Shown here: piece by piece, positions 241-50,735 of the stretch
Position numbering within the stretch: the first letter of the stretch is position 1
Layout of the letters: each line of letters begins with the position of its first letter
Origin: Bernardetia sp.
GTDB taxonomy: Bacteria; Bacteroidota; Bacteroidia; Cytophagales; Bernardetiaceae
Assembly (NCBI RefSeq): GCF_020630935.1
Contig: NZ_JAHDIG010000020.1
Span: forward strand, 1-61,592
DNA length: 61,592 bases
Reading direction: 5' to 3'
The notes under the pieces: model-generated
Seen by the model: only the letters and a program-made list of their open reading frames with translations
The model's database searches: none
Told to the model about the DNA's origin: nothing
Made by a program: the position numbers and the translations under genes

Positions 241-363
241 TAAAGTACTGGACATCAATATACATTTACTGTTCTGCAAGTAGTAGAACAAGGAAAAGTA
301 TTGTGGATTGTTTTTTTTAGTGTAACGACACCAATAATTTTTTATCTTATATCCAGTATTCTA
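241..363 (-). repeat. Miniature inverted-repeat element, copy A (degenerate)
   Basis: This 123-bp element starts TAAAGTACTGGACAT and ends with the complement of TAGAATACTGGATAT, so its termini pair at 12 of 15 positions. Its reverse complement aligns along its length with the element at 32821-32941, including the shared inner block GTGTCGTTACACTAAAA. The flanking 9-mers ATTGAATAT (232-240) and ATTAAACAT (364-372) agree at 7 of 9 positions, as expected for an aged 9-bp target duplication. Confidence 0.7.
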
Positions 364-5950: not shown

Positions 5951-6159
5951 AGAAATTTGATGTATATGTCGTTGGTGAGGATACCAACAACGGCGAAGTT
6001 AGAATTTAGGTAAAATTTGGAAAACATTTATAATTGTTAATACGATGCCATTTAGCAAAAAATTGCATATCAAAAGTTAGTATTTTTTTAGATTTTTTCC
6101 AAAAAACACCTTAACAATAAAAAGTTTATTTTTATGTTCTTGGCAAGAAAAAACATAAC

Positions 6160-8229
6160 TTACTCTCTCTCTTCCTTAATCTGTGAAATTGCTATTTCTA
6201 TATTTTTCTTTATGGATTCTATTCGCTGTGTAAGTTCGCTTATTTGGCTTCCTTGAGAAAGCATTCTTCGAAGTTGATTTATCTGTGTTTCTAACTCCCT
6301 TACTTCCAAAAGACGTAAAGTCGCACGCACTTTATGATGTACTAAAGCAAGTTGGGTTTCATAATCTGGAAGATGTGTAGATTCCAAAATTCTATTAAAC
6401 TCTATCAAATCAGCTTCACTAAGTTCTAAGAGCTCAGCATAAAATGCCTTATCTGCCCCTGCAAGATTTTTGAAGTAAGAATAATTTAGATTTTGCTTAA
6501 CCAAATTATCATTTGAAGCCTCCTTTTGTAACTGTAATTGTGTGTAACTGTGTTGAGCAATTTTTTGATACAACTCATTTGGATTGAAAGGTTTACTTAA
6601 AAAATCATTCATTCCTACCTGTACGATTCGCTCTCTTTCATTGAGCAGAGTAGAGGCTGTTAGGGCAATGATAGGTGTAAACTTATCTGTATTTGCCTCT
6701 AAGAGTCTAATTTGGCGAGCTGCCTCATATCCATCCATAACAGGCATTTGCAAATCCATCAGAACTACATCAAAATCGTGTTTTTTAAATAAATCTAAGG
6801 CTACTTGTCCATTTTCTGCGACATAAAACTTAGCTCCCCAAGTATTGAGAAATTTCTTTACCAAAATCTGATTGACTTTATTATCTTCAACAATCAGAAT
6901 ATTTACTCCTCTTAGGTTTTTGATATTTACGGTATCAGGAAGATGAGTGGCAATAGGCTTTGATTTTCCTATTTTAAAACCTAGTTGGAAACTGAAGGTA
7001 GAACCCACCATAAGCGTACTCATTACATTGATAGTTCCTCCTTGCAACTCTACAAGTTGTTTTGTAATAGCAAGTCCTAAACCCGTACCTCCATATTTAC
7101 GAGAAGTGTCTTCTTCTGCTTGGGAAAAATCTTCAAAAATAGCATTAATTTTTTCTGGTGAAATGCCTATTCCTGTATCTGAAACAGCAAAAAGTAGTTC
7201 TACTTTTTCAGTTTTGTGATGTAAAAGTCTCGTAGTAATAGTAACTGTTCCTTCTTCTGTAAACTTTATAGCATTTCCAATAAGATTATTTAAAATTTGA
7301 GAAAGACGTGTTGAATCTCCAATAAGTGCATTTGGTATATTTTTATCAATATTGGTACGAAGCAATACATTTTTTTCATCGGCTCTAGCCTTAAAAATTT
7401 CTACTGTATTTTGGATAAGTGCTGGTAAGTCAAACTGAGTTTGTTCAAAAGCCATTTTTCCAGCTTCCATTTTAGAAATATCCAAGACGCTATTGATAAG
7501 TGAAAGAAGATTTTGCGCCGAAAACTCCAATATTTCAATATTTTCAGCCATTTCTCCTTCTAGCTTATCGCTTTTGAGCAAGTGCGTCATGCCTATAATA
7601 GCATTTAGAGGTGTTCTAATTTCATGGCTCATGGTAGAAAGAAATTGTTCTTTCATTTTTGTAGCAGCTTCTGCTTGCTCTTTTGCTTTTTTCAAATCTT
7701 CGTTGGTAGCCATTAGTTCAGCTGTGCGCTCCTTCACTTTGCTTTCCAAACCTTCATTTGCTGTTTTGAGAGCATTTACTAACTGTCTGTTTTCTGTACG
7801 AAGTGCATACGTTTCAAGAGCTTTGTCTATAGTAAGGAGCATTTCGTCTTTGTTCCATGGCTTTACCAAATACCTAAAAATACCACACTTATTGATAGCA
7901 CGCATAATGTCTTCCGTGTCACTATAAGCTGTCAGAATGATACGCACCGTATTAGGAAAACTTTCAGCTACTCTTTCCAAAAATTCAACTCCTGTCATCT
8001 CTGGCATTTTTTGGTCAGAAATAACAAGTTGAATATCGTTGTTTTCTAAAATCTCTAAACCTTCTTTTCCAGAGATGGCTGTAAAAATTTTGTAATGTCT
8101 TCTAAACGAACTCTTGAAAATACGCAAATTACTTTCCTCATCATCTACATATAAGATAGAAGATGTCTTTTTAGAACTGGCTTGTGTATTATTAGGTAAT
8201 ATGGTTGTGTTATGTGTGGAATCAGACAT
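6160..8229 (-). CDS. Hybrid sensor histidine kinase: REC-HisKA-HATPase-REC-Hpt
   Basis: This is a cytoplasmic phosphorelay protein with no membrane segment. Domain order: an N-terminal receiver (about 22-140, acceptor Asp72 in SDQKMPEMTG), a coiled coil (about 145-195), HisKA with phospho-acceptor His202 in STMSHEIRTPLNAIIGM, an ATPase domain (N box near 316-324, DTGIGISP at 351-358, GTGLGLAI at 381-388), a second receiver (about 442-560, Asp492 in LMDLQMPVMDG), and a C-terminal Hpt-like helical segment with candidate His632 in LVHHKVRATL. The N-terminal receiver suggests input from an upstream kinase rather than from a ligand. All catalytic residues are present. No dedicated response regulator lies beside it, so the output is unknown. 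Confidence 0.93.
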   Translation of the reverse strand: MSDSTHNTTILPNNTQASSKKTSSILYVDDEESNLRIFKSSFRRHYKIFTAISGKEGLEILENNDIQLVISDQKMPEMTGVEFLERVAESFPNTVRIILTAYSDTEDIMRAINKCGIFRYLVKPWNKDEMLLTIDKALETYALRTENRQLVNALKTANEGLESKVKERTAELMATNEDLKKAKEQAEAATKMKEQFLSTMSHEIRTPLNAIIGMTHLLKSDKLEGEMAENIEILEFSAQNLLSLINSVLDISKMEAGKMAFEQTQFDLPALIQNTVEIFKARADEKNVLLRTNIDKNIPNALIGDSTRLSQILNNLIGNAIKFTEEGTVTITTRLLHHKTEKVELLFAVSDTGIGISPEKINAIFEDFSQAEEDTSRKYGGTGLGLAITKQLVELQGGTINVMSTLMVGSTFSFQLGFKIGKSKPIATHLPDTVNIKNLRGVNILIVEDNKVNQILVKKFLNTWGAKFYVAENGQVALDLFKKHDFDVVLMDLQMPVMDGYEAARQIRLLEANTDKFTPIIALTASTLLNERERIVQVGMNDFLSKPFNPNELYQKIAQHSYTQLQLQKEASNDNLVKQNLNYSYFKNLAGADKAFYAELLELSEADLIEFNRILESTHLPDYETQLALVHHKVRATLRLLEVRELETQINQLRRMLSQGSQISELTQRIESIKKNIEIAISQIKEERE

Positions 8230-8269
8230 TTTATAGATTTTCTTATCAAAGATATTTTTTTATTATCAG

Positions 8270-8788
8270 CTAATATTTCTTTATAGAATTTATTTCTTTT
8301 CGTATTTGATTTCTAGTTAAAAAATTCCATTTACTTGTTCTCCCATCAAAAATAAATCTTGCACTTGGTATGTACCCTCCCTCTACTGAATCACAAAAGT
8401 CAGTGGCTAAAGTTATTTTTTTTCTACTCATAGAAACAATTTGAGTAGTGCGTATATCCACATCGATAGTATCTTCACTTAAAACACGATGGCAAATATG
8501 ATAAATGATTTTACCTGAGTTTTGCTTAAATGGTTTTTCTAATACAGAATAATAACTTGTTGTGTTATCAAAAAATATAAATTGATTTAGTTTGCTTTTT
8601 TGATTTGATAAATGTTTAGAAAAATCTGTCTGAACAAGAATTTCACTTTTATCCTTCTCTTCTAGCTCATCTGAAAATACAGAAAATAATGTCTTTTGGT
8701 AAAATGTAATCAACAAAGAGTCAGCAACATTTTGCCCAAACGAATATTGTGATAGAAAGAGCAATACAAAAATAATTAACGTCCTCAT
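8270..8788 (-). CDS. Small secreted protein of unknown function
   Basis: I do not recognise the family. The longest frame begins at a TTG overlapping the upstream stop. The ATG at 8786-8788 is the better start because it places a typical signal peptide (MRTLIIFVLLFLSQYSFGQ) at the N terminus, giving 172 residues. The rest is a mixed strand-helix protein with no membrane segment, so a periplasmic or outer-surface location is likely. Its start lies 27 bases after the stop of the RNA methyltransferase gene, so the two are probably co-transcribed. The histidine kinase gene follows 41 bases downstream. Confidence 0.75.
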   Translation of the reverse strand: MRTLIIFVLLFLSQYSFGQNVADSLLITFYQKTLFSVFSDELEEKDKSEILVQTDFSKHLSNQKSKLNQFIFFDNTTSYYSVLEKPFKQNSGKIIYHICHRVLSEDTIDVDIRTTQIVSMSRKKITLATDFCDSVEGGYIPSARFIFDGRTSKWNFLTRNQIRKEINSIKKY

Positions 8789-8814
8789 CAAGTTATAGTT
8801 AGTTCTTAGAAAGT

Positions 8815-9351
8815 TCAACTAAATATATTCATTTTTTCAGTACAATGCCAAAGTATTATGCCCAAACTTACAGAAACATTTAATGAATGCTTTGTACCAA
8901 ATTGAGGAATTTCTAAAGCAGTATCACAGTTTTGTAATACTTCTGCATCTACTCCAAAGGCTTCATTTCCAAACACAAAAGCATATTTTTCTTCTTGATT
9001 TGGTAAAAAATCACCAAGTTTCTGACTTTCTGTGGTTTGTTCGATAGCAGTAATACTATATCCCTTTTGGCGAAGTGCATCAATGGCAGCATTTGTTGTC
9101 TCAAAATACTCCCACTCTACCGATTCTGTTGCTCCTAAAGCCGTCTTTTGAATCTCTCGGTGTGGAGGTTTTGCTGTGATACCACAAAGCATAATTTTCT
9201 CAATAGAGAATGCATCAGATGTTCTGAAAGCTGCCCCCACATTGTGTGCGCTTCTGACATTGTCCAATACAATAACGATGGGTTGCTTTTTTTGTTCTTT
9301 AAATTCTTCTATTCCAATTCTGCCCAAATTTTCTAAAGAGAGTTGTTTCAT
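8815..9351 (-). CDS. SpoU/TrmH-family RNA 2'-O-methyltransferase
   Basis: This 178-residue protein is close to the minimal SPOUT methyltransferase size. The three family motifs are visible: motif 1 with LDNVRSAHNVGAAFRTSDAF near 29-48, motif 2 with FVFGNEAFGVD near 130-140, and motif 3 with EIPQFGTKHSLNVSVSLGI near 147-165. The knotted C-terminal half binds S-adenosylmethionine, and the motif 1 Arg and motif 3 Asn/Ser are the usual catalytic residues. Substrates of the family are tRNA or rRNA riboses. No N-terminal RNA-binding extension is present, so the exact target cannot be read from the sequence. Confidence 0.92.
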   Translation of the reverse strand: MKQLSLENLGRIGIEEFKEQKKQPIVIVLDNVRSAHNVGAAFRTSDAFSIEKIMLCGITAKPPHREIQKTALGATESVEWEYFETTNAAIDALRQKGYSITAIEQTTESQKLGDFLPNQEEKYAFVFGNEAFGVDAEVLQNCDTALEIPQFGTKHSLNVSVSLGIILWHCTEKMNIFS

Positions 9352-9432
9352 TGAAGATTTATATAATATGTGATAATTAATGACAAATTTACACGTTTTT
9401 TAAGAATTTAGCATTATCAGAAGCAGACTTTG

Positions 9433-10041
9433 CTATGCTCTTCTTTTTTTCTTTCTATAATTGGTAGAAGGAATATATCCTCCTCTGAATAGCTTTCCTA
9501 TATTCATTTCCAATTTTTCTGAAAAGGTTTTCTGACAGGTAATTTCCATTTTCTCAAAACCTTTTATGGCTAACTGTGCTGTTGCATCACTATCTGAACC
9601 TGCTCTATGGTGGCGAAAATAAATTTCATTTTGGTTACAAAGCGTCTTTAAATCGTAGCGAGGCATATCTGTCCAAATTTTTCTAGCAAAAAGATAGCTA
9701 CAAGAATATGACAAATCTGGATAAGGCAAATTATAAGAATCTAATGTTTTACGAAGCACTGAAAAATCAAAACTAGCATTATGGGCTATCAAAAATTGAT
9801 TTTCCACCAACTCTTTCAGTTCTGACTCCCAAAGCTGGTCAAAACGAGGCTGCTCCCAAACATCGGCTGCCGTAATGCCGTGGATAGAAATATTGATAGG
9901 GTCAAAATGATTGATTTTAGGACGAATGAGCCACGATTTTGTTTCTGTAATTTCGTTATCTTTGACAAAAGTAAGTCCTATTTCACAGGCACTATTTCTG
10001 TATTTATTTGCTGTTTCGAAATCTATTGTTATAAAATCCAT
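9433..10041 (-). CDS. DEDDh 3'-5' exonuclease (DnaQ/epsilon-like)
   Basis: The exonuclease fold is clear from its three metal-binding motifs: Exo I with Asp7 and Glu9 (TIDFET), Exo II with Asp92 (AHNASFD), and Exo III epsilon with His145 and Asp150 (HHRAGSDSDAT). At 202 residues it is a single-domain protein lacking any BRCT or polymerase fusion, so a repair or RNA-trimming exonuclease is as likely as a polymerase III proofreading subunit. It ends in a basic tail (YRKKKRRA). It lies 81 bases upstream of the RNA methyltransferase gene on the same strand. Confidence 0.92.
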   Translation of the reverse strand: MDFITIDFETANKYRNSACEIGLTFVKDNEITETKSWLIRPKINHFDPINISIHGITAADVWEQPRFDQLWESELKELVENQFLIAHNASFDFSVLRKTLDSYNLPYPDLSYSCSYLFARKIWTDMPRYDLKTLCNQNEIYFRHHRAGSDSDATAQLAIKGFEKMEITCQKTFSEKLEMNIGKLFRGGYIPSTNYRKKKRRA

Positions 10042-10241
10042 TTTTAAGTCTTGTAATTATACTATTAAAATATATTTACAAAAATAGCTGTATTTTTTAA
10101 CAAAGTGCTAATTTTATAAGAAATACAACTCTTCCCTCACAAATCGAAACACAAGAAACTATAAATAAAATAGCAAAAGAGACCCAAAAAACGAGAGAAA
10201 AAGAGACATTATGTGGTAGTTTTTGGAGAGGTTCTATTAAA

Positions 10242-10318
10242 TTATCACAGTTAATTTTATAATGTTCATTTCTCTATAGGGTTGAGTGGACAAATCCAAC
10301 CCTATGGAGAAATAGATA
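10242..10318 (+). repeat. Hairpin repeat, second family, copy a
   Basis: It begins TTATCACAGTTAATTT, as does the copy at 50594, and contains a 17-bp stem (10268-10284 with 10297-10313, one G-T wobble) built on ATTTCTCYATAG and its complement. The same stem core occurs at 34785-34819 and in the copy at 50594-50721. Confidence 0.7.
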
Positions 10319-10339
10319 CAATCTAATTTTCAATTTTTT

Positions 10340-10391
10340 CCTGTTCTTTGACTCACAGAACAGTAAATATCTATAGCTTTCCAGTACTCTA
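10340..10391 (+). repeat. Miniature element, truncated right half (copy D)
   Basis: CCTGTTCTTTGACTCACAG onward aligns with 32891-32941 and ends in the terminal repeat CCAGTACTCTA. The left half is missing, replaced by the second-family hairpin repeat, and no target duplication is visible. Confidence 0.65.
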
Positions 10392-10398
10392 ATTTGAA

Positions 10399-11529
10399 TT
10401 ATTCTTCTTTCAATATTGTATTGAATATTTTATCCATTGTTTCAATCATTGCTTTTGCTGTTTCTGTTCCACTTTGGTTTGTGATGATAAAAGCTCCTAA
10501 ATTATGCTTTGGAACAATAAAAATATAACATTGCGACCTAGGAACTCCTCCATGATGTAGATAATATTTTCCTAGTTCTTTATCAGACAAATCTATCTCC
10601 CAAAAATAAGCTAGTTCATTTGTTGAATCGGCTTTAAATAGCGTTCTATGAGATTCTTGTACAGTTTTATCATTTTTTAGCTGATATTTTATAAAACCAA
10701 GCATATCAGGTACTGTAGATTTGATATTTCCTGCTGCTCCCCAAGGCAATTTTCCCATAGGAAGAGTGATATTTGGGTTATCAACATGGTAGCCTACCAC
10801 AATGTCCTTAGCATCAACATTTACTTTTGTGTTGTTCATTCCTATTTCAGTAGAAAGAAATTCAGTCAGCAACTGCTCATAGTCTTTTTTATATACTTGT
10901 TCTAATAGATGAGCCATAAGCTCTACTCCTGCACTTGAATAGGAATATTTTTCTCCTAATTGAGAAGTTACCTTGATAGAATCTAAGTCTTTTAAGAAGG
11001 AATTTTTATCATAATTTTCTAGTACTTGATGTATCTTTGAAGGCGTGTCGTAGTTTACAAAATCATCTAGTACAGGATTTAATTCCAAAGGTAGCATATT
11101 AGGCAAAGTGCTAGTATGTGTTAGTAGATGCTTTATTTTTACAGGCTGATTCTGATAGCTTAGATTAGTATATTTTTTATCCAAATATTTATTTACGCTA
11201 TCCTCAACATCTATTTTTCCTTCTAATACGGCTTTTGCCACTAGCGTTCCTGTTATTACTTTACTCAACGAACCAATTTCATAAATTGTCTCATTATTGG
11301 GTTTGTTGTTTTTGCCTTTTTCTATTTCTCCATAATGTCCTATGTATTCTTTTCCATCATAAAATATCGCAATAGAAGTAGAATTTATAAGAGGCTTCTC
11401 AATCATTTCTTTTGCTACTGGCTCTATGATTTCTGATAAATCAATTTCTTTTTTATTTTCTAATTGTTTTGGTTTTTCATTACAACCTAAAACTATCAAA
11501 GAGAGAATAAGCAAAAAATATTTAGACAT
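10399..11529 (-). CDS. Serine hydrolase lipoprotein of the class C beta-lactamase fold
   Basis: A lipobox (IVLGC, Cys16) shows export as a lipoprotein. The nucleophile motif SxxK is Ser87-Leu-Ser-Lys90 in the context EIGSLSKVITGTL. The second motif is Tyr197-Ser-Ser (family YxN or YxS), and HHGG near the C terminus is the third, KTG-like, motif. The 376-residue length fits single-domain members, which include esterases, D-aminopeptidases and peptidoglycan-related hydrolases as well as beta-lactamases. Nothing here predicts antibiotic hydrolysis. It stands alone, with repeats on its 3' side. Confidence 0.9.
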   Translation of the reverse strand: MSKYFLLILSLIVLGCNEKPKQLENKKEIDLSEIIEPVAKEMIEKPLINSTSIAIFYDGKEYIGHYGEIEKGKNNKPNNETIYEIGSLSKVITGTLVAKAVLEGKIDVEDSVNKYLDKKYTNLSYQNQPVKIKHLLTHTSTLPNMLPLELNPVLDDFVNYDTPSKIHQVLENYDKNSFLKDLDSIKVTSQLGEKYSYSSAGVELMAHLLEQVYKKDYEQLLTEFLSTEIGMNNTKVNVDAKDIVVGYHVDNPNITLPMGKLPWGAAGNIKSTVPDMLGFIKYQLKNDKTVQESHRTLFKADSTNELAYFWEIDLSDKELGKYYLHHGGVPRSQCYIFIVPKHNLGAFIITNQSGTETAKAMIETMDKIFNTILKEE

Positions 11530-11590
11530 TTTGGTACTATTATTTTGAATTTGGAAAAATACACTACTACGAATTTATAAAAAAACACTT

Positions 11591-12700
11591 TTAATGAACT
11601 ACCTTAAACTGCTTTCCTGGAAGAGCTTTTACGATGCCTTTCATTTCCATCATCAATAATTGGCTAGCAAGCTGCCCCAGTGGAATTTGTGTCTTGATAG
11701 AAAGGCTATCTATTGCCATTGTACCACCATCTTCTTCTAGTTTGTTCATGATGATTTGTTCTTCCATTGTAAGCTGTCCTACTGATTTTTTTATAGGTTT
11801 TGTAGTTCGTTCGTCCAAATCCCATTTCAAAATATATTCTATATCTTCAACAGAAGTATAAATATGAGCTTGGTGGTTTCGAATGAGTTTATTACAGCCT
11901 TCTGAAGCCATAGCTTCCAAATTACCAGGTACAGCAAACACTTCACAGTTGTAGTAATTGGCGATGTTTGCTGTAATGAGTGCGCCTCCCTTTTTGGCTG
12001 CCTCTACCACAATCAAAACATCAGAAAGTCCTGCAATAACACGATTACGTTGAGGAAAACGAGAAGGGTCTGGCATCGTTCCAAAACAACCTTCTGTCAA
12101 GAGTCCTCCTTGGTCTATCATATCAAAGGCTGTATTCTTGTGAGCAGGAGGATAAATTTTGTCTAATCCATTTGCCATAACACCTACTGTGTCTAATCCA
12201 CATTCAAGACTAGCTTTGTGTGAAAAAATATCTATTCCATACGCCAAACCACTTATTATCAAAGGATTATATCTAGTCAAATCTCTGACTATTTTTTGTG
12301 TCATTGCTTTTCCATATTCTGTGGCTTTGCGTGTTCCGACAATACCCACAGTTTTTTGAGCATTCAAATCTGCATTGCCTTTGTAGTAGAGAATATAAGG
12401 AGAGTCTTCGTGTCTAAGCAGGCGTTTTGGATAACCTTTGTCTGTATAAATCAATATTTTAACATCTTCTCTTTCGGCAATCGATAATTGTTTGTTTGCC
12501 TCTTCTAATGCTTGTGATTTATTTTCTTTGATAGATTTTATAATTCGTTGTCCTACATTGGGAGCTTTCAGAAGCCTAGAAGAAGGCGCACTAAAAACCT
12601 CTTCGGCAGAGCCACAATAACTGACCAATGTTTTGGCTGTTTTTGCCCCCACATACGGCAACAGCGATAAAGCAACTTGAAACTGACGACTATCAGACAT
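11591..12700 (-). CDS. dprA: DNA processing protein DprA
   Basis: DprA binds single-stranded DNA entering the cell and loads RecA during natural transformation; many non-transformable bacteria also keep it. The 369-residue protein has an N-terminal helical SAM/HhH-like region (to about residue 70), the Rossmann-like DprA core (about 80-285) with VGIVGTRKATEYG, IISGLAYGIDIFSHKASL, FPQRNRVIAGLSD and GGALITANIA, and a C-terminal winged-helix domain (about 305-369). Length and motif order match full-length DprA, so it is probably functional. No other competence gene is nearby. Confidence 0.95.
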   Translation of the reverse strand: MSDSRQFQVALSLLPYVGAKTAKTLVSYCGSAEEVFSAPSSRLLKAPNVGQRIIKSIKENKSQALEEANKQLSIAEREDVKILIYTDKGYPKRLLRHEDSPYILYYKGNADLNAQKTVGIVGTRKATEYGKAMTQKIVRDLTRYNPLIISGLAYGIDIFSHKASLECGLDTVGVMANGLDKIYPPAHKNTAFDMIDQGGLLTEGCFGTMPDPSRFPQRNRVIAGLSDVLIVVEAAKKGGALITANIANYYNCEVFAVPGNLEAMASEGCNKLIRNHQAHIYTSVEDIEYILKWDLDERTTKPIKKSVGQLTMEEQIIMNKLEEDGGTMAIDSLSIKTQIPLGQLASQLLMMEMKGIVKALPGKQFKVVH

Positions 12701-12801
12701 AGATATATAAACAAAATGAAAAATTGAATGGCAAATTACTGAAATTTTTAGCTAAAACTATCATGTCATTCTACACTTTTAGTGATTTTTTATACAGAAT
12801 T

Positions 12802-12844
12802 GACAAAATAAAACTCTCTGCATTCATAGAAAATACAGAGAGTT
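12802..12844 (-). terminator. Terminator of the small duplicated-domain gene
   Basis: AACTCTCTG (12812-12820) pairs with 12836-12844 across a 15-base loop. On the minus strand the hairpin is followed by TTTTATTTT, about 20 bases after the stop at 12865. Confidence 0.7.
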
Positions 12845-12864
12845 CTGACTTACTTTTTATGAGC

Positions 12865-13188
12865 TTAGTTTGCTTTTAAAGTAGTGTCGTTGTCTAATAA
12901 TTTTTCATTATCAGCATCTGCTACTTGTACAGCAATATCAAACTTTTCTTGAAAAAGTTTTTCAAATTCTTCAATACTCATTTCAGATGGCATGTCAAAT
13001 TCGCCTAAACCTGCAAGAGACTCACGCTCATCTGCTACCTCTCCCAAACGAGCCTTATCGTCTGCAAAGCGTGCGCCACGTCCTGCGTTGTTGCCTTTAT
13101 AGACACGCAATGAATAACCAAAAGTTTCTTTAAATTTTTCTTTGAGTGTATTTACAGTCATACGACCATCTACTTTGAATGTTGCCAT
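12865..13188 (-). CDS. Small acidic protein made of two tandem repeats
   Basis: I do not recognise a named function. The 107-residue protein has no signal peptide, so it should be cytoplasmic. It appears internally duplicated: residues 4-50 (MTVNTLKEKFKETFGYSLRV, then a FADD-xx-RL tail) align with residues 64-107 (MSIEEFEKLFQEKFDIAVQV, then a LLDNDTTL tail). Each unit looks like strand, helix, strand, as in a compact alpha-beta fold. It has its own terminator at 12802-12844. The rlmI-like gene lies 123 bases upstream on the same strand with a hairpin between, so it is probably transcribed alone. Confidence 0.8.
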   Translation of the reverse strand: MATFKVDGRMTVNTLKEKFKETFGYSLRVYKGNNAGRGARFADDKARLGEVADERESLAGLGEFDMPSEMSIEEFEKLFQEKFDIAVQVADADNEKLLDNDTTLKAN

Positions 13189-13230
13189 AACTTTCTAATT
13201 TTTTGAGTGTTAGTTAAATTGAGTGATAAA

Positions 13231-13263
13231 AATATTGACTGACATAGTCTTTTTACGTCAGTC
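13231..13263 (-). terminator. Probable terminator of the rRNA methyltransferase gene
   Basis: GACTGAC (13237-13243) pairs with GTCAGTC (13257-13263). On the minus strand an AT-rich tract with TTTTT follows, between the stop at 13312 and the start at 13188. The stem is only 7 bp. Confidence 0.4.
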
Positions 13264-13311
13264 TTGCCGTTATTGATATGTCCACCAACGACAGACTTCA
13301 ATTTACTAAAA

Positions 13312-14586
13312 TTATTCTACTTGCAAAACCAAACCTTTCAAATATTCTCCCTCTGGATGATAAATATTAATAGGATGGTCTAACGGCTGTGTAAGTTGAT
13401 GCACAATTCGTATTTTTCGCCCTGCTTCAGCTGCTGCCGTAAAGACAAATTTTCTAAATAAGTCTTTACTTACACTTCCCGAACATGAAAAAGTAAATAC
13501 TAAACCTCCACTTTTTACTTTTTTAAAGCCTAACTCATTCAAATTGATATATCCTCTAGTTGCCTTTGGCAATGAACGTTTATTTTTAGCAAAAGCAGGT
13601 GGGTCAAGAATAATAATATCAAACAAATCATCATTTTTATCTGCTTCTGCTTCATTTTTTAATGCTTTCAAATACTCAAAACAGTCTTGAGCTATGGCTT
13701 CATGATTTTTATTTGCTCTCATCAAACTATCAAAGTTTAGAGCTACATTTTGCTCTGCTGCCTCTGTGGCTTCTTTAGAAATATCTACCGAAACTACACT
13801 TTTTGCCTCTCCAGCAATGGCATAGACACTAAACCCTCCTGTGTAGCCAAAACAGTTCAAGACAGATTTTCCTTTGGAGTATCTTTTTACTAAATCTCGG
13901 TTTTCTCGTTGGTCTATGAAAAAACCTGTTTTTTGTCCATCAACCACATCAACTTTGAATTTCAGATTATTTTCCAAAACTTGAATAGGCATTAATGGAA
14001 TATCTTTTTCTGTCTGATTTTCTGCCAGTTGCCAGCCTTGCTGAACTTGACTATCATCATCTCCAAAACCTTCAATATTGCGTGTACTTTCTTTGATATG
14101 AAGGTAAATATGTTGGATTCCGACAGCACGAAGTCCACTAAAAATATGCTTTGCAATACGTTGCGTTCCTTTTATGAGAAGCTGAACTGAAGCCACTGTA
14201 TCATAGACATCTACGATAACTCCAGAAAAAAAATCGCCTTCTGCGTGTAAAAGTCTGTACGCATTAGTGGAAGCATCAATGAGATAATCTTTACGCAAAT
14301 TGTACGCATTTTTTATTTTTTGATGGAAATATGCTTCATCTGCGACAAACTGGTTGTCTTTATCGTGAAAACGAGTAAACTCAAAAATACGACAGGTAAT
14401 CTGGCTTGTTGTATCAAAAAATCCATATCCCAAAATACGTTTTTTGGCATCTTGTACAGCTACAATTTCTCCATTTTCGGCATCTGGCATTTTATGGACT
14501 CCTCCTGAAAATATCCAAGGATGCTGATTCAAAATTGATTTTTCTCTGCCTTTTTTGAGTTGTAGAATAGGATAAGATGTTGTCAT
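13312..14586 (-). CDS. RlmI-like 23S rRNA cytosine methyltransferase (PUA + SAM domain)
   Basis: The family (COG1092) methylates cytosine-5 in 23S rRNA. The longest frame starts at a TTG (14628), but the ATG at 14584-14586 (MTTSYPILQLKKGREKSIL) aligns with the normal family start, giving 424 residues. An N-terminal PUA-like region contains LKKGREKSILNQHPWIFSGG. The central motif VDGQKTGFFIDQRENRD is the family signature. The SAM fold follows with VLNCFGYTGGFSVYA (motif I) and the IIILDPPAFAK motif IV. A C-terminal FTFSCSGSVS segment holds a cysteine near the usual catalytic region. The nearest characterised relative is RlmI (m5C1962), but paralogues exist. Confidence 0.9.
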   Translation of the reverse strand: MTTSYPILQLKKGREKSILNQHPWIFSGGVHKMPDAENGEIVAVQDAKKRILGYGFFDTTSQITCRIFEFTRFHDKDNQFVADEAYFHQKIKNAYNLRKDYLIDASTNAYRLLHAEGDFFSGVIVDVYDTVASVQLLIKGTQRIAKHIFSGLRAVGIQHIYLHIKESTRNIEGFGDDDSQVQQGWQLAENQTEKDIPLMPIQVLENNLKFKVDVVDGQKTGFFIDQRENRDLVKRYSKGKSVLNCFGYTGGFSVYAIAGEAKSVVSVDISKEATEAAEQNVALNFDSLMRANKNHEAIAQDCFEYLKALKNEAEADKNDDLFDIIILDPPAFAKNKRSLPKATRGYINLNELGFKKVKSGGLVFTFSCSGSVSKDLFRKFVFTAAAEAGRKIRIVHQLTQPLDHPINIYHPEGEYLKGLVLQVE

Positions 14587-14726
14587 TTTTTGTAGGTAAT
14601 TTGTTGAGATTTGAGTTTGTAGGTTCAAAGATAGTATTTTTACATTTCTAAGTCAGAACGTAGTAAATGGTACTTTCAAAAATGAATGAACATAATCAAA
14701 ACTAAATATGAGAATAAAAATTTTTA

Positions 14727-15553: not shown

Positions 15554-15732
15554 AAATTTTTACTCGCTGCTGCATTCATAAACATTTCTTTAAAATAGTC
15601 ATTTTTTGTCTTTTTATCGGTAGAAGGGTCACAAATATGATAATCAATGGTAAAATATTCTCCATCATTGCCACTAGAATGAACTAAATTAACCACACAA
15701 ATACTTGAAACTAACCCTTTTTCATTGCGAAC
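15554..15732 (-). pseudogene. Fragment of a second transposase (IS4/IS701-like)
   Basis: One minus-strand frame reads VRNEKGLVSSICVVNLVHSS followed by IDYHICDPSTDKKTKNDYFKEMF. This resembles the stretch between the first and second catalytic Asp of IS4/IS701-type transposases, where IDYRIYD and DGKTKN-like motifs recur. About 55 residues remain. The fragment is cut on its N-terminal side by the intact IS5-family element and on its C-terminal side by the IS1 element. The exact family is my recollection of motif style rather than an alignment. Confidence 0.55.
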
Positions 15733-15734
15733 TT

Positions 15735-16653
15735 GTTTAAGAATGTAGATTTATGTTATCAAAAAAGAGGTCAAAATAGTTATCATTGTAAATAACCACA
15801 TTTGCAACGTAACCATTTTTTCCTCTATGTACGTAAACCTATCAAAAAAAATTATAACAGAAAATATTTTACCTTATTTAGAGCAATTTTCCAAAGGTCG
15901 TCGGATAAAAGTCGCTCTTTGGCGTATTATTAAAGCTATTGTTTATCGTTTAAAATCAAGTTGTCAATGGCGAGAACTTCCAATGAAACAATTTTTTGGC
16001 AACATCTCAATTAGTTGGAATACAGTGTATTACCATTTCAATAAGTGGTCAAAACTTGGAAGTTGGAAAAAGCTTTGGACAACCTATTTAGAAGATTATC
16101 GTGGAGAGTTAGATTTTTCTATTTGCCATTTAGACGGTAGCCATACGCTAGCCAAACGAGGGGGAGAAGGTATTGGTTATTCCAAAAGAAAAGCAGGAAA
16201 AACTACTAACATTCTTTTCCTAACTGATAAAAACGGTATTCCTGTAGCTATGTCTGTTCCTATCGCAGGCAATCATCATGACGCTTTTGAGTTGGAAAAA
16301 AATGTACAAACGATGATAGATGATTTGAATGCTTCTCAAATTAGAGAACAAGGCATATTTCTCAATGCTGATGCAGCTTTTGATACGAATGCTTTTCGTT
16401 CGTTTTGTTATCATTTGGAAATAGTGGATAATATAGACTTCAACAAAAGAAATAAAAAAGACCTTGATAATCAACCTTTTAAAGATGAGAAAATGTATGA
16501 ATTAAGATTCGCTATCGAAAGAACCAATGCGTGGTTGGACGCATTCAAGGCACTTATAATAAGATACGAAACTAAAATTCATACTTGGCAAAGCTTACAC
16601 TATTTAGCATTTATTTTGATTGTTGCTAGAACTAGAAAAAAACATTCTTAAAC
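15735..16653 (+). mobile_element. Intact IS5-family insertion sequence
   Basis: Perfect 12-bp terminal inverted repeats (GTTTAAGAATGT at 15735-15746 and ACATTCTTAAAC at 16642-16653) bracket the transposase gene; the right repeat overlaps its stop codon. The 5-mer AACTT directly abuts both ends (15730-15734 and 16654-16658) and may be the target duplication. The 919-bp length fits the family. The left end lies against the transposase fragment at 15554-15732, so this element inserted next to or into older mobile DNA. Confidence 0.75.
15827..16651 (+). CDS. IS5-family transposase (DDE)
   Basis: The 274-residue single-frame transposase appears intact. It has an N-terminal DUF4096-like segment (RIIKAIVYRLKSSCQWRELP) that includes a helix-turn-helix-like region, then the RNase H-like DDE core: first Asp in CHLDGSHT, second Asp in LNADAAFD, and Glu in ELRFAIERTNAWLDAF with the downstream RYE motif. 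It carries both ends of the element as inverted repeats, so it may be active. It is the only complete transposase in the window, but its ends do not match those of the miniature repeats at 29791 and 32821. Confidence 0.9.
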   Translation: MYVNLSKKIITENILPYLEQFSKGRRIKVALWRIIKAIVYRLKSSCQWRELPMKQFFGNISISWNTVYYHFNKWSKLGSWKKLWTTYLEDYRGELDFSICHLDGSHTLAKRGGEGIGYSKRKAGKTTNILFLTDKNGIPVAMSVPIAGNHHDAFELEKNVQTMIDDLNASQIREQGIFLNADAAFDTNAFRSFCYHLEIVDNIDFNKRNKKDLDNQPFKDEKMYELRFAIERTNAWLDAFKALIIRYETKIHTWQSLHYLAFILIVARTRKKHS

Positions 16654-16658
16654 AACTT

Positions 16659-16833
16659 CTAAATTGTACTACTCAACTACTTAAGTAGTTAGCTGGTATA
16701 ATTTTGTTATTTTCAAAAGCTAGTGCAATTTTATAAAAAGTTGAATTTTAACTTTGTCAAGGGTCTTTTCGAAGAAAAAAACAGACCTTGACAATAGTTT
16801 TTATAAACTAAATTGTACTACTCAACTACTTAA
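16659..16833. repeat. 26-bp direct repeat flanking a hairpin
   Basis: CTAAATTGTACTACTCAAC followed by TACTTAA occurs exactly at 16659-16684 and again at 16808-16833. The first copy continues into a 16-bp palindrome (AACTACTTAAGTAGTT, 16675-16690). Between the copies lies a hairpin (TTGTCAAGG(G)TCT at 16754-16766, complement at 16783-16794) followed by a T-rich tract. The second copy ends 5 bases before the ATG of the phosphatase gene. Confidence 0.75.
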
Positions 16834-29132: not shown

Positions 29133-29768
29133 ATGACTGACTGGCTACTCAAAATAAAAGAAATCGTTTGGTTACAAATTTTTATAATTTATACTCGTTA
29201 CCTCATAGGAGGCACTTTTGTTTTTGCAAGCCTAATAAAAATAAAAGGACTGCGTTTTACTACCAATAGTGGTGCAGATGCTCCCATTGATTCGGCTTGG
29301 CATTTTTTCGAAACAATGTATCAATCAGGGTTGTATTGGCAATTCTTGGGTTTTGGGCAGCTTGTGGCTGGGTTTTTCTTAATGACACAACGTTATTCAA
29401 AACTAGGAGCAGCACTTTTTTATCCTATTATCCTTAATGTTTTTGTAATCACACTTTCTTATGAGTTTGGTGCAACACCTCTCATCACAGGTCTGATGCT
29501 TTTGGCAAATACTGTACTTCTTTTTTGGGAATGGAATAGCCTAAGAATATTTTTTAATCAATCTCTCATCAGAGACAACCCAAATAGAATAGAAAACAAC
29601 CTCATTTGGCAATGGCTAGGTTTGTTTTTGTTTGTCTTTACAACTTCTTATAGAATCTATACGAATAAATATGATATGTTCTTTTGGTTGGGAACATGTT
29701 TTTTAATAGGGCTAAGTGGATTTGTTGCTTGGCTTTGGAAAAGCAAATTCAAAACGCAAACTGTATAG
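29133..29768 (+). CDS. DoxX-like integral membrane protein
   Basis: Residues 15-40 (FIIYTRYLIGGTFVFASLIK), 65-95, 98-115, 120-140 and 165-205 form about five hydrophobic segments. The first helix followed by a GADAPIDSAWHFFETMYQSG loop and a QFLGFGQLVAGFFLM helix resembles DoxX/DoxD-type proteins, which are linked to quinone or thiol redox chemistry in some bacteria. The 211-residue length fits. It starts 7 bases after the SAM hydrolase gene. A strong terminator overlaps its stop codon. The biochemical role is unknown. Confidence 0.8.
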   Translation: MTDWLLKIKEIVWLQIFIIYTRYLIGGTFVFASLIKIKGLRFTTNSGADAPIDSAWHFFETMYQSGLYWQFLGFGQLVAGFFLMTQRYSKLGAALFYPIILNVFVITLSYEFGATPLITGLMLLANTVLLFWEWNSLRIFFNQSLIRDNPNRIENNLIWQWLGLFLFVFTTSYRIYTNKYDMFFWLGTCFLIGLSGFVAWLWKSKFKTQTV

Positions 29769-29786
29769 GCTTGCGTTTTGAATTTT
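29746..29786 (+). terminator. Terminator overlapping the DoxX-like stop codon
   Basis: AATTCAAAACGCAA (29746-29759) pairs exactly with TTGCGTTTTGAATT (29771-29784) across an 11-base loop that contains the TAG stop at 29766-29768, and continues into TTT. The hairpin's left arm is therefore coding. Confidence 0.8.
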
Positions 29787-29790
29787 TGAT

Positions 29791-29869
29791 TAGAGTATTG
29801 GACATGAACAAATATTTGTTGATGTTTTAGCGCAATACCAACAATTTTTATCTTATGTCTAGCACTCTA
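29791..29869 (-). repeat. Miniature element with exact 9-bp target duplication, copy B (79 bp)
   Basis: The element runs from TAGAGTATTGGACAT to the complement of TAGAGTGCTAGACAT (13 of 15 terminal positions pair). It is flanked by the exact duplicate ATTTTTGAT at 29782-29790 and 29870-29878. Its reverse complement shares AGACATAAGATAAAAATTG and the following GTTGGT/CTAAAACA block with the longer copies, but it lacks their right-hand CTGTTC hairpin, making it a shorter variant. It has no room for a protein. Confidence 0.85.
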
Positions 29870-29880
29870 ATTTTTGATAT

Positions 29881-30399
29881 TTATGCTTTCTTCTTATAGA
29901 TTTTTTTAGTGTCTTCGCCTTCTTTCATCAAGACTAATTTATCATCAGTAATTTCTACGATGGTGTAGTTTACAGGAGCTTTCTCTTTTCCTGCTTTACT
30001 ATCCCATTCCATCATTGTGATAGTTTTGCCATCATCAGACATTGTCCAATAGCCAACTACAGAAGAAGAAATTAAGCCCTCACCTACTTTTCTTTTATAA
30101 GAAAATTTGCTTTTGTTTTTTTTATCCCTTGAAAAAGTAAGCGTTTCGGCAGCAAAATCAGCTATTTTTCCGACATCTCCCTTTAGCTCAATATTTGATT
30201 TGATACCAGAAGCATCTTCTACGTTTTCAGAACCTTTTGCAAGGTTGGCATTTACATCATATTTCCAAGAAGAAGCCATTAGTTTCTCTCCTTCGGCTGG
30301 TATTTTTGCCTTTTTGCTTCCACAAGAAGAAAGATTAAATGATAAAAATAATACAGCTACAAAAGCAGTCAAGAGGTTGAATTTAAGATATGTTTTCAT
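29881..30399 (-). CDS. Lipoprotein of unknown function, lipocalin-like
   Basis: The lipobox LSSC gives lipidation at Cys26. The 172-residue protein then shows alternating strands and loops (MASSWKYDVNANL, TLTFSRDKKNKSKFSYKRKV, GYWTMSDDGKTITMMEWDS, YTIVEITDDKLVLMKEG). This matches the W...Y, T...F..DGT and hL.hs.d.L.L pattern of lipocalin-like exported proteins of Bacteroidota. Ligand unknown. It lies 52 bases downstream of the gene at 30452-32359 and is probably in one transcript with it. The miniature element B lies 11 bases beyond its stop. Confidence 0.75.
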   Translation of the reverse strand: MKTYLKFNLLTAFVAVLFLSFNLSSCGSKKAKIPAEGEKLMASSWKYDVNANLAKGSENVEDASGIKSNIELKGDVGKIADFAAETLTFSRDKKNKSKFSYKRKVGEGLISSSVVGYWTMSDDGKTITMMEWDSKAGKEKAPVNYTIVEITDDKLVLMKEGEDTKKIYKKKA

Positions 30400-30451
30400 G
30401 AAAATTAAAAGTTAATTGATAAATAAATTTGATTAATTTTTGAGAAGATTT

Positions 30452-32359
30452 TTATTCCCACTCATGGCATTTTGATATATTTTCTTTTTTCATTAGGTAA
30501 CCAAACTCACCCCTTCCACTAAAAAGGGTTTTGTCTCCGCTCATTTCGAAAAGACTCGGAATTTGGTCAATGGCAGTAAAATTCCAAACTGTTCCATTTA
30601 CTTTTTTGAAAAGTCCGATAGGAATAATTTCTACTGTTCCGTTTGGACGTTCGATAGCAGCCCATCCACTTGTTGCATAACCGATGACTGGATGAGGCCA
30701 TTTAGCATCTTTTACTTCACTGGGTGTATCTGTATGGACGAACTTCAATAGCTTTCCATATTTTCCGAAGCCTTCTAGGTTTGAAATCATTTTTCGGTCG
30801 TCTCTACAAGCCTGTGGCATTGTTGCTTCAATACGTCTTTGGAGAAGTTTATCGAAAAGTGATTGAATTTCAGAGCGACTTGCTTCATTCATTTCAAAAA
30901 CAAAAGTATTATAACCTATTTCAGTATTAGTATTTGCCATTTTATCTCTTGTAAAGCCTATTTCTAGTTCGTGAGAACCATTTGGAAGATTGAGTAAAAA
31001 TTTCAATATGTTTAAATGAACATCGTATTGATAACCACTTTTGTAGTCTAAACTTTCTGGATTTGGAAAAACATTAAAACCGATTGCTCCATTATTTTTC
31101 AAAAAGGTTTCTTCGTCTTTTTTCCAAACAAATAGTTTTTGGCTATATGTAAAACCATCTTTTTTTCTCCATTTCATCCCTACATAACGCTGTCCAGAAT
31201 TTAGAGGATTAGGAAAGTAGCCAACTAAAAATTTTCCGTTTTTAGGCGATAAAATTTTACTTGTTTTTTCTTTAGAACCCTCTCCAACAGGAATTTCATC
31301 TTTAAATAAGGCTACCTGTCCCAAATTATTTTTGTGATAATTTCCCTTTATATAAGGAGCTGCACTGATGGCTTTGTTGTAGGTTTCAATGGCTTTTTTA
31401 TGAGCTGCTTTAGTTTCTGCATTTGGATTTACAGTTTCAAAATCTGATGCCAAATCAGCTACTTTTTTGAGGTAGAGCAAACGAGGTTTTCCTTGTACGA
31501 AGTCTTCGCCGTCTTTGGCTGGAGTGATGGAAACGCCTTCTAAATATTGATTGATGATTTGAGGAAATAAAGGATAAATTTTAGGCAAATCTTGATTCAT
31601 AAACTGAATGCCCTTTTTTCCTGCATAACTTGTGCTGATATTGGCTTCTCCATACGTATCTATTTTTTCTTTGATGTCGGATAAGTCATTATTGACAAAC
31701 ATTTGCAACATAGAATATCCTTTCCAGCCCATTATATCATTAATATTACTAATATGAGGAAAGGTTTTGGATTTAAAATATGCCATAGCGTCAAAGCTGC
31801 CATCGTTATTAGACGAGCTAGACGAAGATGAAGCATTTGAGCTAGAGTTAGATTGTGTAGTCGCAACATTTGTGTTTTCTATATTGGCTACAAAGGAATC
31901 AAAAAATACATTGGCTTTTTTCTCATCTATTTTTCCAAGTTGCTTTGCTGTAATGAGTATCCAAATACGATATTCACTCATCCATACACGAATCAAAAAA
32001 TTGTTTGTACCACTTTTTACTTTTGCTTCTTGTCCTTTTAGGTTGCCATTATTGAGTTTTTTTACACTTCCATTGACATTGCCATAACTTGTAAAGGCTG
32101 CATCTATGTGTTCTTGTGGATTTTCGAAGGTAGCATCTCTTGTGATAAATGTTACTCTATATACTTGCTTTCCATCACTGGCTGTAAGGGTTTTGTAATC
32201 GCCATCAGTTTCTGTGGCTGGGTTAGCAGGGAAATTCATTTTAAATTTTCCTTCGCTATAATTATAAGTTTGCCAATCTGCTTTTGCTTCATAGAGTACA
32301 AAACTAAAGAGCATATAAAGCAAGGTTGCTCTAAGGAGCAATTTAATTTTTGATTTCAT
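30452..32359 (-). CDS. Large exported protein with a PsbP-like N-terminal domain
   Basis: A signal peptide (about 1-27, ending YEAKA) precedes WQTYNYSEGKFKMNFPANPA, the start of a PsbP/DUF1795-like domain to about residue 160. A Ser/Asn-rich linker (about 165-190) joins it to a 440-residue C-terminal region that I do not recognise. That region contains SMLQMFVNNDLSDIKEKI, MKWRKKDGFTYSQKLFVWKK, and a final repeat-like set of strands (WPHPVIGYATSGWAAIERPN). No membrane anchor or sorting domain is evident at the C terminus, so the mature protein should be periplasmic. 635 residues. Confidence 0.75.
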   Translation of the reverse strand: MKSKIKLLLRATLLYMLFSFVLYEAKADWQTYNYSEGKFKMNFPANPATETDGDYKTLTASDGKQVYRVTFITRDATFENPQEHIDAAFTSYGNVNGSVKKLNNGNLKGQEAKVKSGTNNFLIRVWMSEYRIWILITAKQLGKIDEKKANVFFDSFVANIENTNVATTQSNSSSNASSSSSSSNNDGSFDAMAYFKSKTFPHISNINDIMGWKGYSMLQMFVNNDLSDIKEKIDTYGEANISTSYAGKKGIQFMNQDLPKIYPLFPQIINQYLEGVSITPAKDGEDFVQGKPRLLYLKKVADLASDFETVNPNAETKAAHKKAIETYNKAISAAPYIKGNYHKNNLGQVALFKDEIPVGEGSKEKTSKILSPKNGKFLVGYFPNPLNSGQRYVGMKWRKKDGFTYSQKLFVWKKDEETFLKNNGAIGFNVFPNPESLDYKSGYQYDVHLNILKFLLNLPNGSHELEIGFTRDKMANTNTEIGYNTFVFEMNEASRSEIQSLFDKLLQRRIEATMPQACRDDRKMISNLEGFGKYGKLLKFVHTDTPSEVKDAKWPHPVIGYATSGWAAIERPNGTVEIIPIGLFKKVNGTVWNFTAIDQIPSLFEMSGDKTLFSGRGEFGYLMKKENISKCHEWE

Positions 32360-32969
32360 AGTAATAGTAATAGATTTTAGTTTTTTTTGAAAGAGTTTTA
32401 AAAATAGTGAAAAGGTAAATTTGGTGTAACAGACTTTTACGTCTTGTTTGATGTTTGAATGTACGGAAACCTATTCAAAAAGGGCAAAAAATAACTGGGA
32501 CAAAACTGGGACAATTTCTTAAAGTGCTTTTAATCAATGTTTTATGGATAGGATGGGAGTTATGTTTTCTAGTAAGAAACAAAGTACAACCTTCTTTTTT
32601 TAAGACAAAAAATCTGAAGTTTTAGCTAGTTGTACTTAAAAATTGCCTTCTTTATTCTTTGAAAACTTCTTAAAATGGTCAATGTTTTTATTTTTGAAGC
32701 CTACATTTTGGATGTATAATCACTTTATCATCAATGTTACTATTTTGATGATTTTGAAATATATTCTTTAAAAAAAGTTAATATATTTACATTATGTTAT
32801 AACAAGAAAAGTTTAATCCTTAGAATACTGTACATGAAATAAAAAGTTGTTAGTGTCGCTACACTAAAACACTAGCGAACGGCACTTTTACCTGTTCTAT
32901 GACTCACAGAATAGCAATATCTATTGATGTCCAGTACTCTATTTAATCCTATTCAAAAATACATTTGTT
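32360..32969. other. Intergenic region between divergent genes, with a miniature element
   Basis: The 610 bases separate two divergent genes. No ORF with coding character was found. It contains a short 11-bp tandem duplication (ACTGGGACAAA then ACTGGGACAAT, about 32493-32514) and the miniature element at 32821-32941. Promoters for both directions must lie here or in the element, but no clear TTG-N17-23-TAnnTTTG match was found. Confidence 0.6.
32821..32941 (+). repeat. Miniature element with exact 9-bp target duplication, copy C (121 bp)
   Basis: The element runs from TAGAATACTGTACAT to the complement of TAGAGTACTGGACAT (13 of 15 positions pair). The exact 9-mer TTTAATCCT flanks it at 32812-32820 and 32942-32950. 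Inside, GTGTCGCTACAC is a small palindrome and CTGTTCTATGACTCACAGAATAG a decayed hairpin. The right edge is only 28 bases from the ATG of the DUF2490 gene, so the insertion must have altered that gene's leader. Confidence 0.85.
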
Positions 32970-50593: not shown

Positions 50594-50721
50594 GTTATCA
50601 CAGTTAATTTAGTAAAGTTCATTTCTTCATAGTCTTAGATTTGTAAAGCTAATGATATGGAGAAATAGATATGATTTTTGATAAATTACTGACAATCAGA
50701 TGTGTAAAAAAACGTGATAAC
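50594..50721. repeat. Hairpin repeat, second family, copy b, with terminal inverted repeats
   Basis: GTTATCAC (50594-50601) at the left is exactly inverted at the right as GTGATAAC (50714-50721), giving a 128-bp unit. Inside, ATTTCTTCATA pairs with TATGGAGAAAT with one wobble. The left part TTATCACAGTTAATTT is shared with the copy at 10242. No clear target duplication flanks it. Confidence 0.65.
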
Positions 50722-50735
50722 CTTTAAAATAAAAA

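Follow-up and report, generated by a model that had tools for sequence, protein, structure and literature searches.

Mobile insertion cassettes related to IS231 are elements of the miniature inverted-repeat transposable element (MITE) type that derive from insertion sequences (IS). In the relevant section of PMC3733652, RUP, NEMIS, ERIC and Nezha are named as bacterial MITEs originating from DDE insertion sequences. For another class of short repeats, the repetitive extragenic palindromes (REP), mobility driven by REP-associated tyrosine transposases (RAYT) has been proposed in passages of PMC3116915 and PMC6006769, and in Anabaena variabilis and Halothiobacillus neapolitanus REP dimers are described within longer palindromes (section on these species in PMC3733652). 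The present analysis concerns M1, a short repeat found in a contig of Bernardetia sp. (NZ_JAHDIG010000020.1 of assembly GCF_020630935.1), whose whole stretch of 61,592 bp is referred to as the window. M1 is a MITE, and it is highly probable that it is driven, most likely, by an IS4-type transposase, that it carries a REP as interior cargo, and that its ends and palindromes have been reassorted within the genus.

Like the bacterial MITEs of DDE insertion sequences, M1 is short and non-coding, possesses inverted ends and target duplications of fixed length, occurs in multiple copies and has a candidate partner IS; unlike them, it encloses a REP which is common to MITEs with other ends, and its interiors vary by species while the ends remain constant. 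The nearest precedent found is the REP dimers inside longer palindromes, and the Bernardetia REP is likewise regularly embedded in a longer repeat; however, that section of PMC3733652 assigns each REP family a single host palindrome and leaves target duplications and a partner transposase unmentioned, while in Bernardetia there are four host families that differ in their ends and in duplication length. The BrickBuilt element of Porphyromonas gingivalis, as characterized in part of PMC4596501, is similarly a MITE of Bacteroidota with another repeat class in its interior, which is a tandem 23-mer minisatellite in BrickBuilt and the putative REP of a RAYT in M1. A MITE with a partner IS is an already known kind of element, and the apparently new feature is the REP cargo shared across MITE families with different ends. 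In the open-access literature searched, no description of a REP common to MITE families differing in ends or duplication lengths was found, nor any paper treating Bernardetia and insertion sequences together.

The window is contig C20 of a draft genome (G000; 153 contigs, 4.75 Mb, 97.4% complete), and six congeners (G001–G006) were used for comparison. An initial annotation made from the window alone had described three M1 copies, A, B and C (Table 1), and their positions, ends and flanks were all reproduced, including the exact but different 9-mers that bracket copies A and B (the chance of a single 9/9 flank match being about 1e-5 at the local base composition) and the duplication of copy C, decayed to 7/9. 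The inverted ends agree at 12/15, 13/15 and 12/15 positions in copies A, B and C, and the longest stop-free frames are 25, 29 and 40 codons, in accordance with the claim that no copy encodes a protein. The two length classes were also correctly attributed to loss of the CTGTTC hairpin: the short class, which lacks about 40 bp with this hairpin included, comprises copy A and a second copy found in G000 (C2:133583-133662, 80 bp, flanks 7/9). Copy D, a truncated fourth copy, was absent from the annotation, as were the putative REP identity of one hairpin, its occurrence in MITEs with other ends and the likeness of the window IS5 ends to those of one such family. With up to 3 mismatches the end motif occurs 8 times in the window against a shuffle mean of 1.73, and 8 matches were reached in none of 100 shuffles.

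Outside the window the family is large. At least 41 near full-length matches to the 121-bp copy B, copy B included, were found in G000 with 40 of 122 candidates scored, and the 15-bp end motif (up to 2 mismatches) gave 82 + 83 = 165 matches against 12 + 15 = 27 for the reversed control, division of which suggests roughly 70 elements. Among 64 candidate end-to-end pairs at the G000 loci, exact 9-bp duplications flank 30 (0.05 expected from mispaired flanks) and 8/9 duplications flank 12 (0.16 expected), and over all loci fetched from G000 and the congeners the exact duplications reach 53 of 93 elements with 0.10 expected, while other duplication lengths are at or near expectation. These shares describe the better-preserved copies, because similarity to the element was the criterion by which loci were chosen, and the pair lists hold a few overlapping alternatives. 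In 38 exact duplications the commonest base is A at position 1 (23 of them) and T at position 9 (24), within surroundings that are 75% A+T.

The copies differ in age between genomes. None of 47 oriented full-length copies of G000 are identical and their mean pairwise identity is 85%, with exact duplications retained by 24, while of 20 copies in the G004 loci six are identical, the mean identity is 97.5% and 14 have exact duplications. By these identities M1 moved recently in G004, whereas in G000 it has for a long time hardly moved, if at all. Five G004 elements of 146–172 bp (L222, L235, L247, L250, L259) have the CTGTTC hairpin region partly duplicated or triplicated, and four of them retain exact 9-bp duplications. 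A further repeat with ends near TAACGTGAACTCGG was noticed at L096 (G000:C17) 1209-1519, L173 and L090, one of which is seemingly nested in M1, resulting in a 311-bp M1 with an 8/9 duplication.

Empty sites were predicted for 38 of 67 full-length copies, those with exact duplications, by joining 60 bp from each side minus one 9-mer, and were searched for in all fetched loci. Three related empty sites, which hold one 9-mer and no element, are convincing. The copy in G000:C23 has its counterpart in G000:C68 (91% over 57 bp, CTTATTTTT once), and that in G000:C5 in G000:C29 (77% over 110 bp, AAATCGTAT once) with a second match at window 50607-50725, where five bases are absent at the junction. The third is a G004 copy inserted in a REP palindrome, for which the free palindrome copies represent the empty site. 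The remaining junction-spanning matches were weaker, were matches of a copy to itself, or repeated one side almost identically. As to the copies of the window, the ORF (open reading frame) beside copy B had no match in the 6 other Bernardetia genomes searched. The neighbour of copy A has four close orthologues, and near these the gene from the opposite flank of copy A was not found. By its shortness, inverted ends, fixed duplications, copy number and related empty sites, M1 is a genuine non-coding transposon family of the MITE type.

The initial annotation had placed the autonomous partner outside the window and distinguished it from the IS5 and IS1 elements there, which is consistent with the candidate obtained from the congeners. 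An end-motif search of five congeners revealed pairs of ends (TACAGTACTGGACAT) 1208 bp apart, and this IS, found in G001, G002 and G003, matches the M1 ends at 14/15 positions. Its single uninterrupted ORF encodes a 373-aa transposase that reads YYLRWKIECLFRHLK, the Y-(2)-R-(3)-E-(6)-K signature of IS4, matches Pfam DDE_Tnp_1 (1.1e-15, 58.4 bits, cut-off 23) and has transpos_IS4_2 (3.6e-32) as best NCBIfam match. Exact 9-bp duplications were observed at all three single copies with flanks read (two in G002, one in G003). A protein search of 59 genomes yielded near-identical full-length copies in G001 (2), G002 (5) and G003 (1), the next relatives of the transposase being 34% identical. According to the table of PMC2266710, the nearest IS4 subgroup is IS4Sa (1150–1750 bp, 8–10-bp duplications, ends CA------T), while IS4 is listed there with YREK spacing and a duplication of about 10 bp; the candidate resembles IS4Sa in having YREK, 1208 bp and 9-bp duplications, and its end TACAGTACT agrees at A2 and T9 but has T1 rather than C. 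Judging from these sequences, the IS4-type transposase probably moves M1 in trans.

Several other partner candidates were rejected. The paired ends 1557 bp apart at L232 belong to two distinct M1 copies that flank unrelated genes, and none of three DDE_Tnp_1 matches in G000, one of which is the window IS5, is bounded by M1 ends. The 40 smallest contigs (C114–C153) contain three loose end-like matches, one of which (C132) is a truncated M1, and no partner. Seven contig edges enter an M1 end, six of them going on as M1 interior and one (C73) stopping at the motif. The edges of contigs C103, C82 and C28 (end of L108, start of L110 and start of L109, respectively) break at the same REP base and enter one shared sequence joined to the palindrome, for which reason they had at first resembled the partner; a piece of this sequence matches IS110-family genes of congeners. 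A similar REP junction was seen in G002 (L151 1490-1520), with an IS110 transposase gene beginning about 300 bp further on, and the REP may serve an IS110-type element as its target.

In G001 two identical IS4-type copies stand in inverted orientation at 84560-85767 and 96968-98175, their outer flanks both reading ATTCCCAAA and their inner flanks being dissimilar, and bound a 13.6-kb composite transposon (L348, G001:C1:83500-99500, at 1061-14676), a layout like that of Tn10. The composite interrupts a PhyH-type gene, the two parts of which align with model positions 2-147 and 145-213, and its cargo shows weak RHS-repeat matches in two of three ORFs scanned, one above and one below the cut-off.

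The interior of M1 in G000 and G004 comprises one REP-like stem-loop, whose free form is GTTGTTGGTGTCGCTACGCTAAAACACCAACAAC, and one unrelated palindrome (CTGTTC), and not the inverted pair of REPs that makes up a REPIN (REP doublet forming a hairpin). In five congeners without any full-length M1 of the window type, the listed matches, at least 30–33 per genome with 30 candidates scored, are due to this REP. Conversely, other palindrome pairs lie between M1 ends, bordered by exact 9-bp duplications, in L345 and L346 (G001, G006) and in L321 and L326 (G002), while the G006 element L330 has M1 ends and another interior without a duplication; the G001 and G006 interiors resemble inverted pairs. 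Thus, the 9-bp duplication is tied to the M1 ends and not to the interior.

A scan of the reading frames of 347 loci, mostly from Bernardetia (1.07 Mb), for the PNHxH-type motif detected four proteins: one from another genus (L360) and three from G000, G006 and G001. These three possess NHIH, WQ and, as third motif, YIHANP, are 179 aa long (193 in G006), and match REP_Tyr_transpos over its full length (74.6–76.1 bits, E 2.5e-21 to 7e-21). A sequence search of PDB with the G000 protein gave nothing significant, the best match being a capsid protein (E 0.043) and IS200-type transposases following at 0.6. The part of PMC6006769 on subclass 2.6 describes Bacteroidetes RAYTs of about 179 aa with NH[LIV]H, WQ and YIH[QN]NP, and REPs that are called atypical and lack the GT[AG]G tetranucleotide; at the palindrome foot of the M1 copies read, no canonical 5' GT[AG]G was found. 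The Bernardetia system resembles this subclass 2.6 REPtron, as presented there, in protein length, NHIH, WQ and flanking palindromes with copies elsewhere in the genome, and differs in one residue of the third motif (YIHANP) and in the occurrence of the palindrome in four DDE MITE families too. Copies or variants of the first M1 stem-loop border all three genes, and it is assigned as the putative REP-like palindrome of the RAYT system present in G000.

The other host families emerged from 60 REP sites sampled from the listed matches (20 from G001, 20 from G003, 15 from G002, 3 from G006, 2 from G005), of which 25 were assigned, using loose end motifs, to M2, 10 to M3, 2 to M4 and 1 to a possible M5. 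Their ends are GAAGTTGTTTAAGAAT (M2), GGTGGTGTTGTACAAAGTATGA (M3) and CAGGGTTTTCTTATAAAA (M4). The duplication is 3 bp in M2 (26 of 44 candidates, which include chance pairs, with 2.5 expected), 8 bp in M3 (7/12, 0.0 expected) and 10 bp in M4 (n=4: two exact, one 9/10, one exact after a one-base shift). In these families and M1, with their four different ends, the REP occurs at 0–2 edits over 26 bases. In M2 the CTGTTC palindrome of M1 stands beside the REP in L450 and L454 (G002) and without it in L197 and L231 (G004). An IS5-family element of the window has M2 ends and is the probable candidate partner of M2, while no partner for M3 or M4 was found among the fetched loci. One M2 insertion was observed, with matching surroundings, in two small contigs, L445 (G002:C5, 20,323 bp) and L458 (G006:C30, 20,388 bp), which are perhaps a shared plasmid.

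Table 1. M1 copies, their parts and the IS5-family element in the window
Feature	Position	Strand	Remarks	Basis
Copy A, M1 element	29791..29869		79 bp, without CTGTTC hairpin	sequence read, alignment
Copy A, left 9-bp target duplication	29782..29790		ATTTTTGAT	sequence read
Copy A, right 9-bp target duplication	29870..29878		ATTTTTGAT	sequence read
Copy A, REP-like palindrome	29818..29842	-	degenerate	sequence and alignment
Copy B, M1 element	32821..32941		121 bp	sequence read, genome search
Copy B, left 9-bp target duplication	32812..32820		TTTAATCCT	sequence read
Copy B, right 9-bp target duplication	32942..32950		TTTAATCCT	sequence read
Copy B, REP-like palindrome	32846..32876	+	left end set at GTTG	sequence and alignment
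Copy B, CTGTTC palindrome	32892..32914	+		sequence and alignment
Copy C, M1 element	241..363		123 bp, flanks ATTGAATAT/ATTAAACAT = 7/9	sequence and alignment
Copy D, right part of truncated M1	~10334-10391		left boundary approximate	end-motif search
IS5-family element	15729..16659	+	M2 ends, no 3-bp duplication of its own	transpos_IS5_3, 138 bits, cut-off 110

Two further features adjoin the window copies. At 29745-29785 a perfect 15-bp inverted repeat is followed by a T-run, resembling an intrinsic terminator and overlapping the target duplication of copy A. At 10253-10328 another palindromic repeat, of the ATTTCTYYATAGG type, adjoins the truncated copy D, and at L091 60-110 (G000:C60) a repeat of this type likewise lies beside an M1 copy.

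In the mechanism proposed, the 15-bp inverted ends of M1 would be recognised in trans by the transposase of the 1208-bp IS4-type element, which would insert M1 at a 9-bp staggered cut, the REP and the second palindrome would be cargo inside it, and MITE ends and palindromic cargo would be exchanged as modules among the species of the genus. The reassortment is indicated because the same REP is found in M2–M4 and M1 ends enclose other palindromes. As for the entry of the REP, we prefer recombination between MITEs at shared palindromes, with RAYT insertion as the second choice and capture at the birth of the element as the third, and the data do not separate these routes. It is further conceivable, if doubtful, that one REP was installed, perhaps by its own RAYT, in MITEs of at least four DDE transposases, giving two-engine elements.

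The RAYT may, as a possible course which we nevertheless regard as unlikely, have processed REP hairpins in single-stranded form and placed them in existing MITEs, with independent insertions in M1–M4 and two transposase chemistries at work. Such insertion accords with the position of the RAYT-like genes, which stand between palindrome copies or variants in all three genomes, G000, G006 and G001 (the downstream copies being degenerate in G001), with the absence of recognised MITE ends at 9 of the 60 REP sites, one of which adjoins a RAYT gene, and with the stretch common to the families, which is approximately the palindrome plus a few bases. However, no empty counterpart was found, i.e. a MITE from one of these families that differs just by lacking the REP. 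In M1 and M2 alike the REP is followed, as judged by eye, by a T-rich linker, and some copies of both families also share the CTGTTC palindrome; these features point to an exchange of larger segments.

Capture at birth, in which REPs common between genes would often be enclosed when two IS ends come to flank a short intergenic piece, with no link between the systems, is rather improbable in our estimation. The number of REPs (each of five congeners has 30 or more scored matches) would provide the opportunity, and M1 interiors do vary from species to species, all those read being palindromic; on the other hand, a REP at 0–2 edits over 26 bases in four families seems much to ascribe to chance.

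There is little likelihood that the hairpins were retained mainly for an RNA function, such as transcript ends or stability, with mobility as mere history. The three full window copies are all intergenic, and across 50 aligned M1 copies the three helices are paired in about 95% of cells against 29–48% in slid controls, and 4 of the 8 REP-stem pairs have changed on both sides. Nevertheless, covariation is weak, because the double changes seen in 7 of 34 stem pairs (3.3 in shuffles, 7 being reached by 14 of 500) compare with 3–9 in the slid controls, and the G000 copies average 85% identity. Spread of REP or REPIN repeats by RAYT alone, with incidental outer repeats, can practically be dismissed despite the presence of both REP and RAYT, as it is contradicted by the fixed 9-bp duplications outside the 15-bp ends and by the occurrence of these ends on elements whose interiors lack this REP.

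The reading of M1 as an IS4-driven MITE with REP cargo has its own difficulties. The NCBIfam IS4 score of the partner transposase (111.8 bits) is under the cut-off of 152, the ends of the IS differ from those of M1 at position 3, and no M1 element was found with IS sequence past the ends. No IS4-type copy was found in G000, G004, G005 or G006 by protein search (E up to 1e-10), and the DNA search of these genomes gave short or weak matches only (40 candidates scored per genome), including a 33-bp exact match in G004:C72; co-residence with the window MITEs is therefore not established, and the recent M1 burst in G004 has no visible partner. The partner may have been lost from G000 or may be just missing from the draft, since its last, seemingly size-sorted contig has 1520 bp and a collapsed 1.2-kb repeat could have been dropped. 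On the side of the cargo, 13 of the 60 REP sites have one recognised end only, besides the 9 with none; M2–M4 were found with the REP as query, which does not give the REP-carrying share of each family; the RAYT-like proteins are under both curated cut-offs (80 for REP_Tyr_transpos; 22.0–22.7 against 23 for Y1_Tnp); and the weak stem covariation counts here too.

To our knowledge, the way in which REP palindromes spread has not been settled. The same REP in elements with target duplications of four lengths suggests another testable route, i.e., hitch-hiking in DDE MITEs, with a partner IS found for one REP-carrying family (M1, IS4-type) and probable for a second (M2, IS5), and MITE ends and interiors are differently combined between the species of one genus. 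If the two-engine elements do exist, the REP would be multiplied by whichever DDE system is active, passing between MITE families, and its spread in the genus would depend mainly on borrowed DDE transposases and not on the RAYT.

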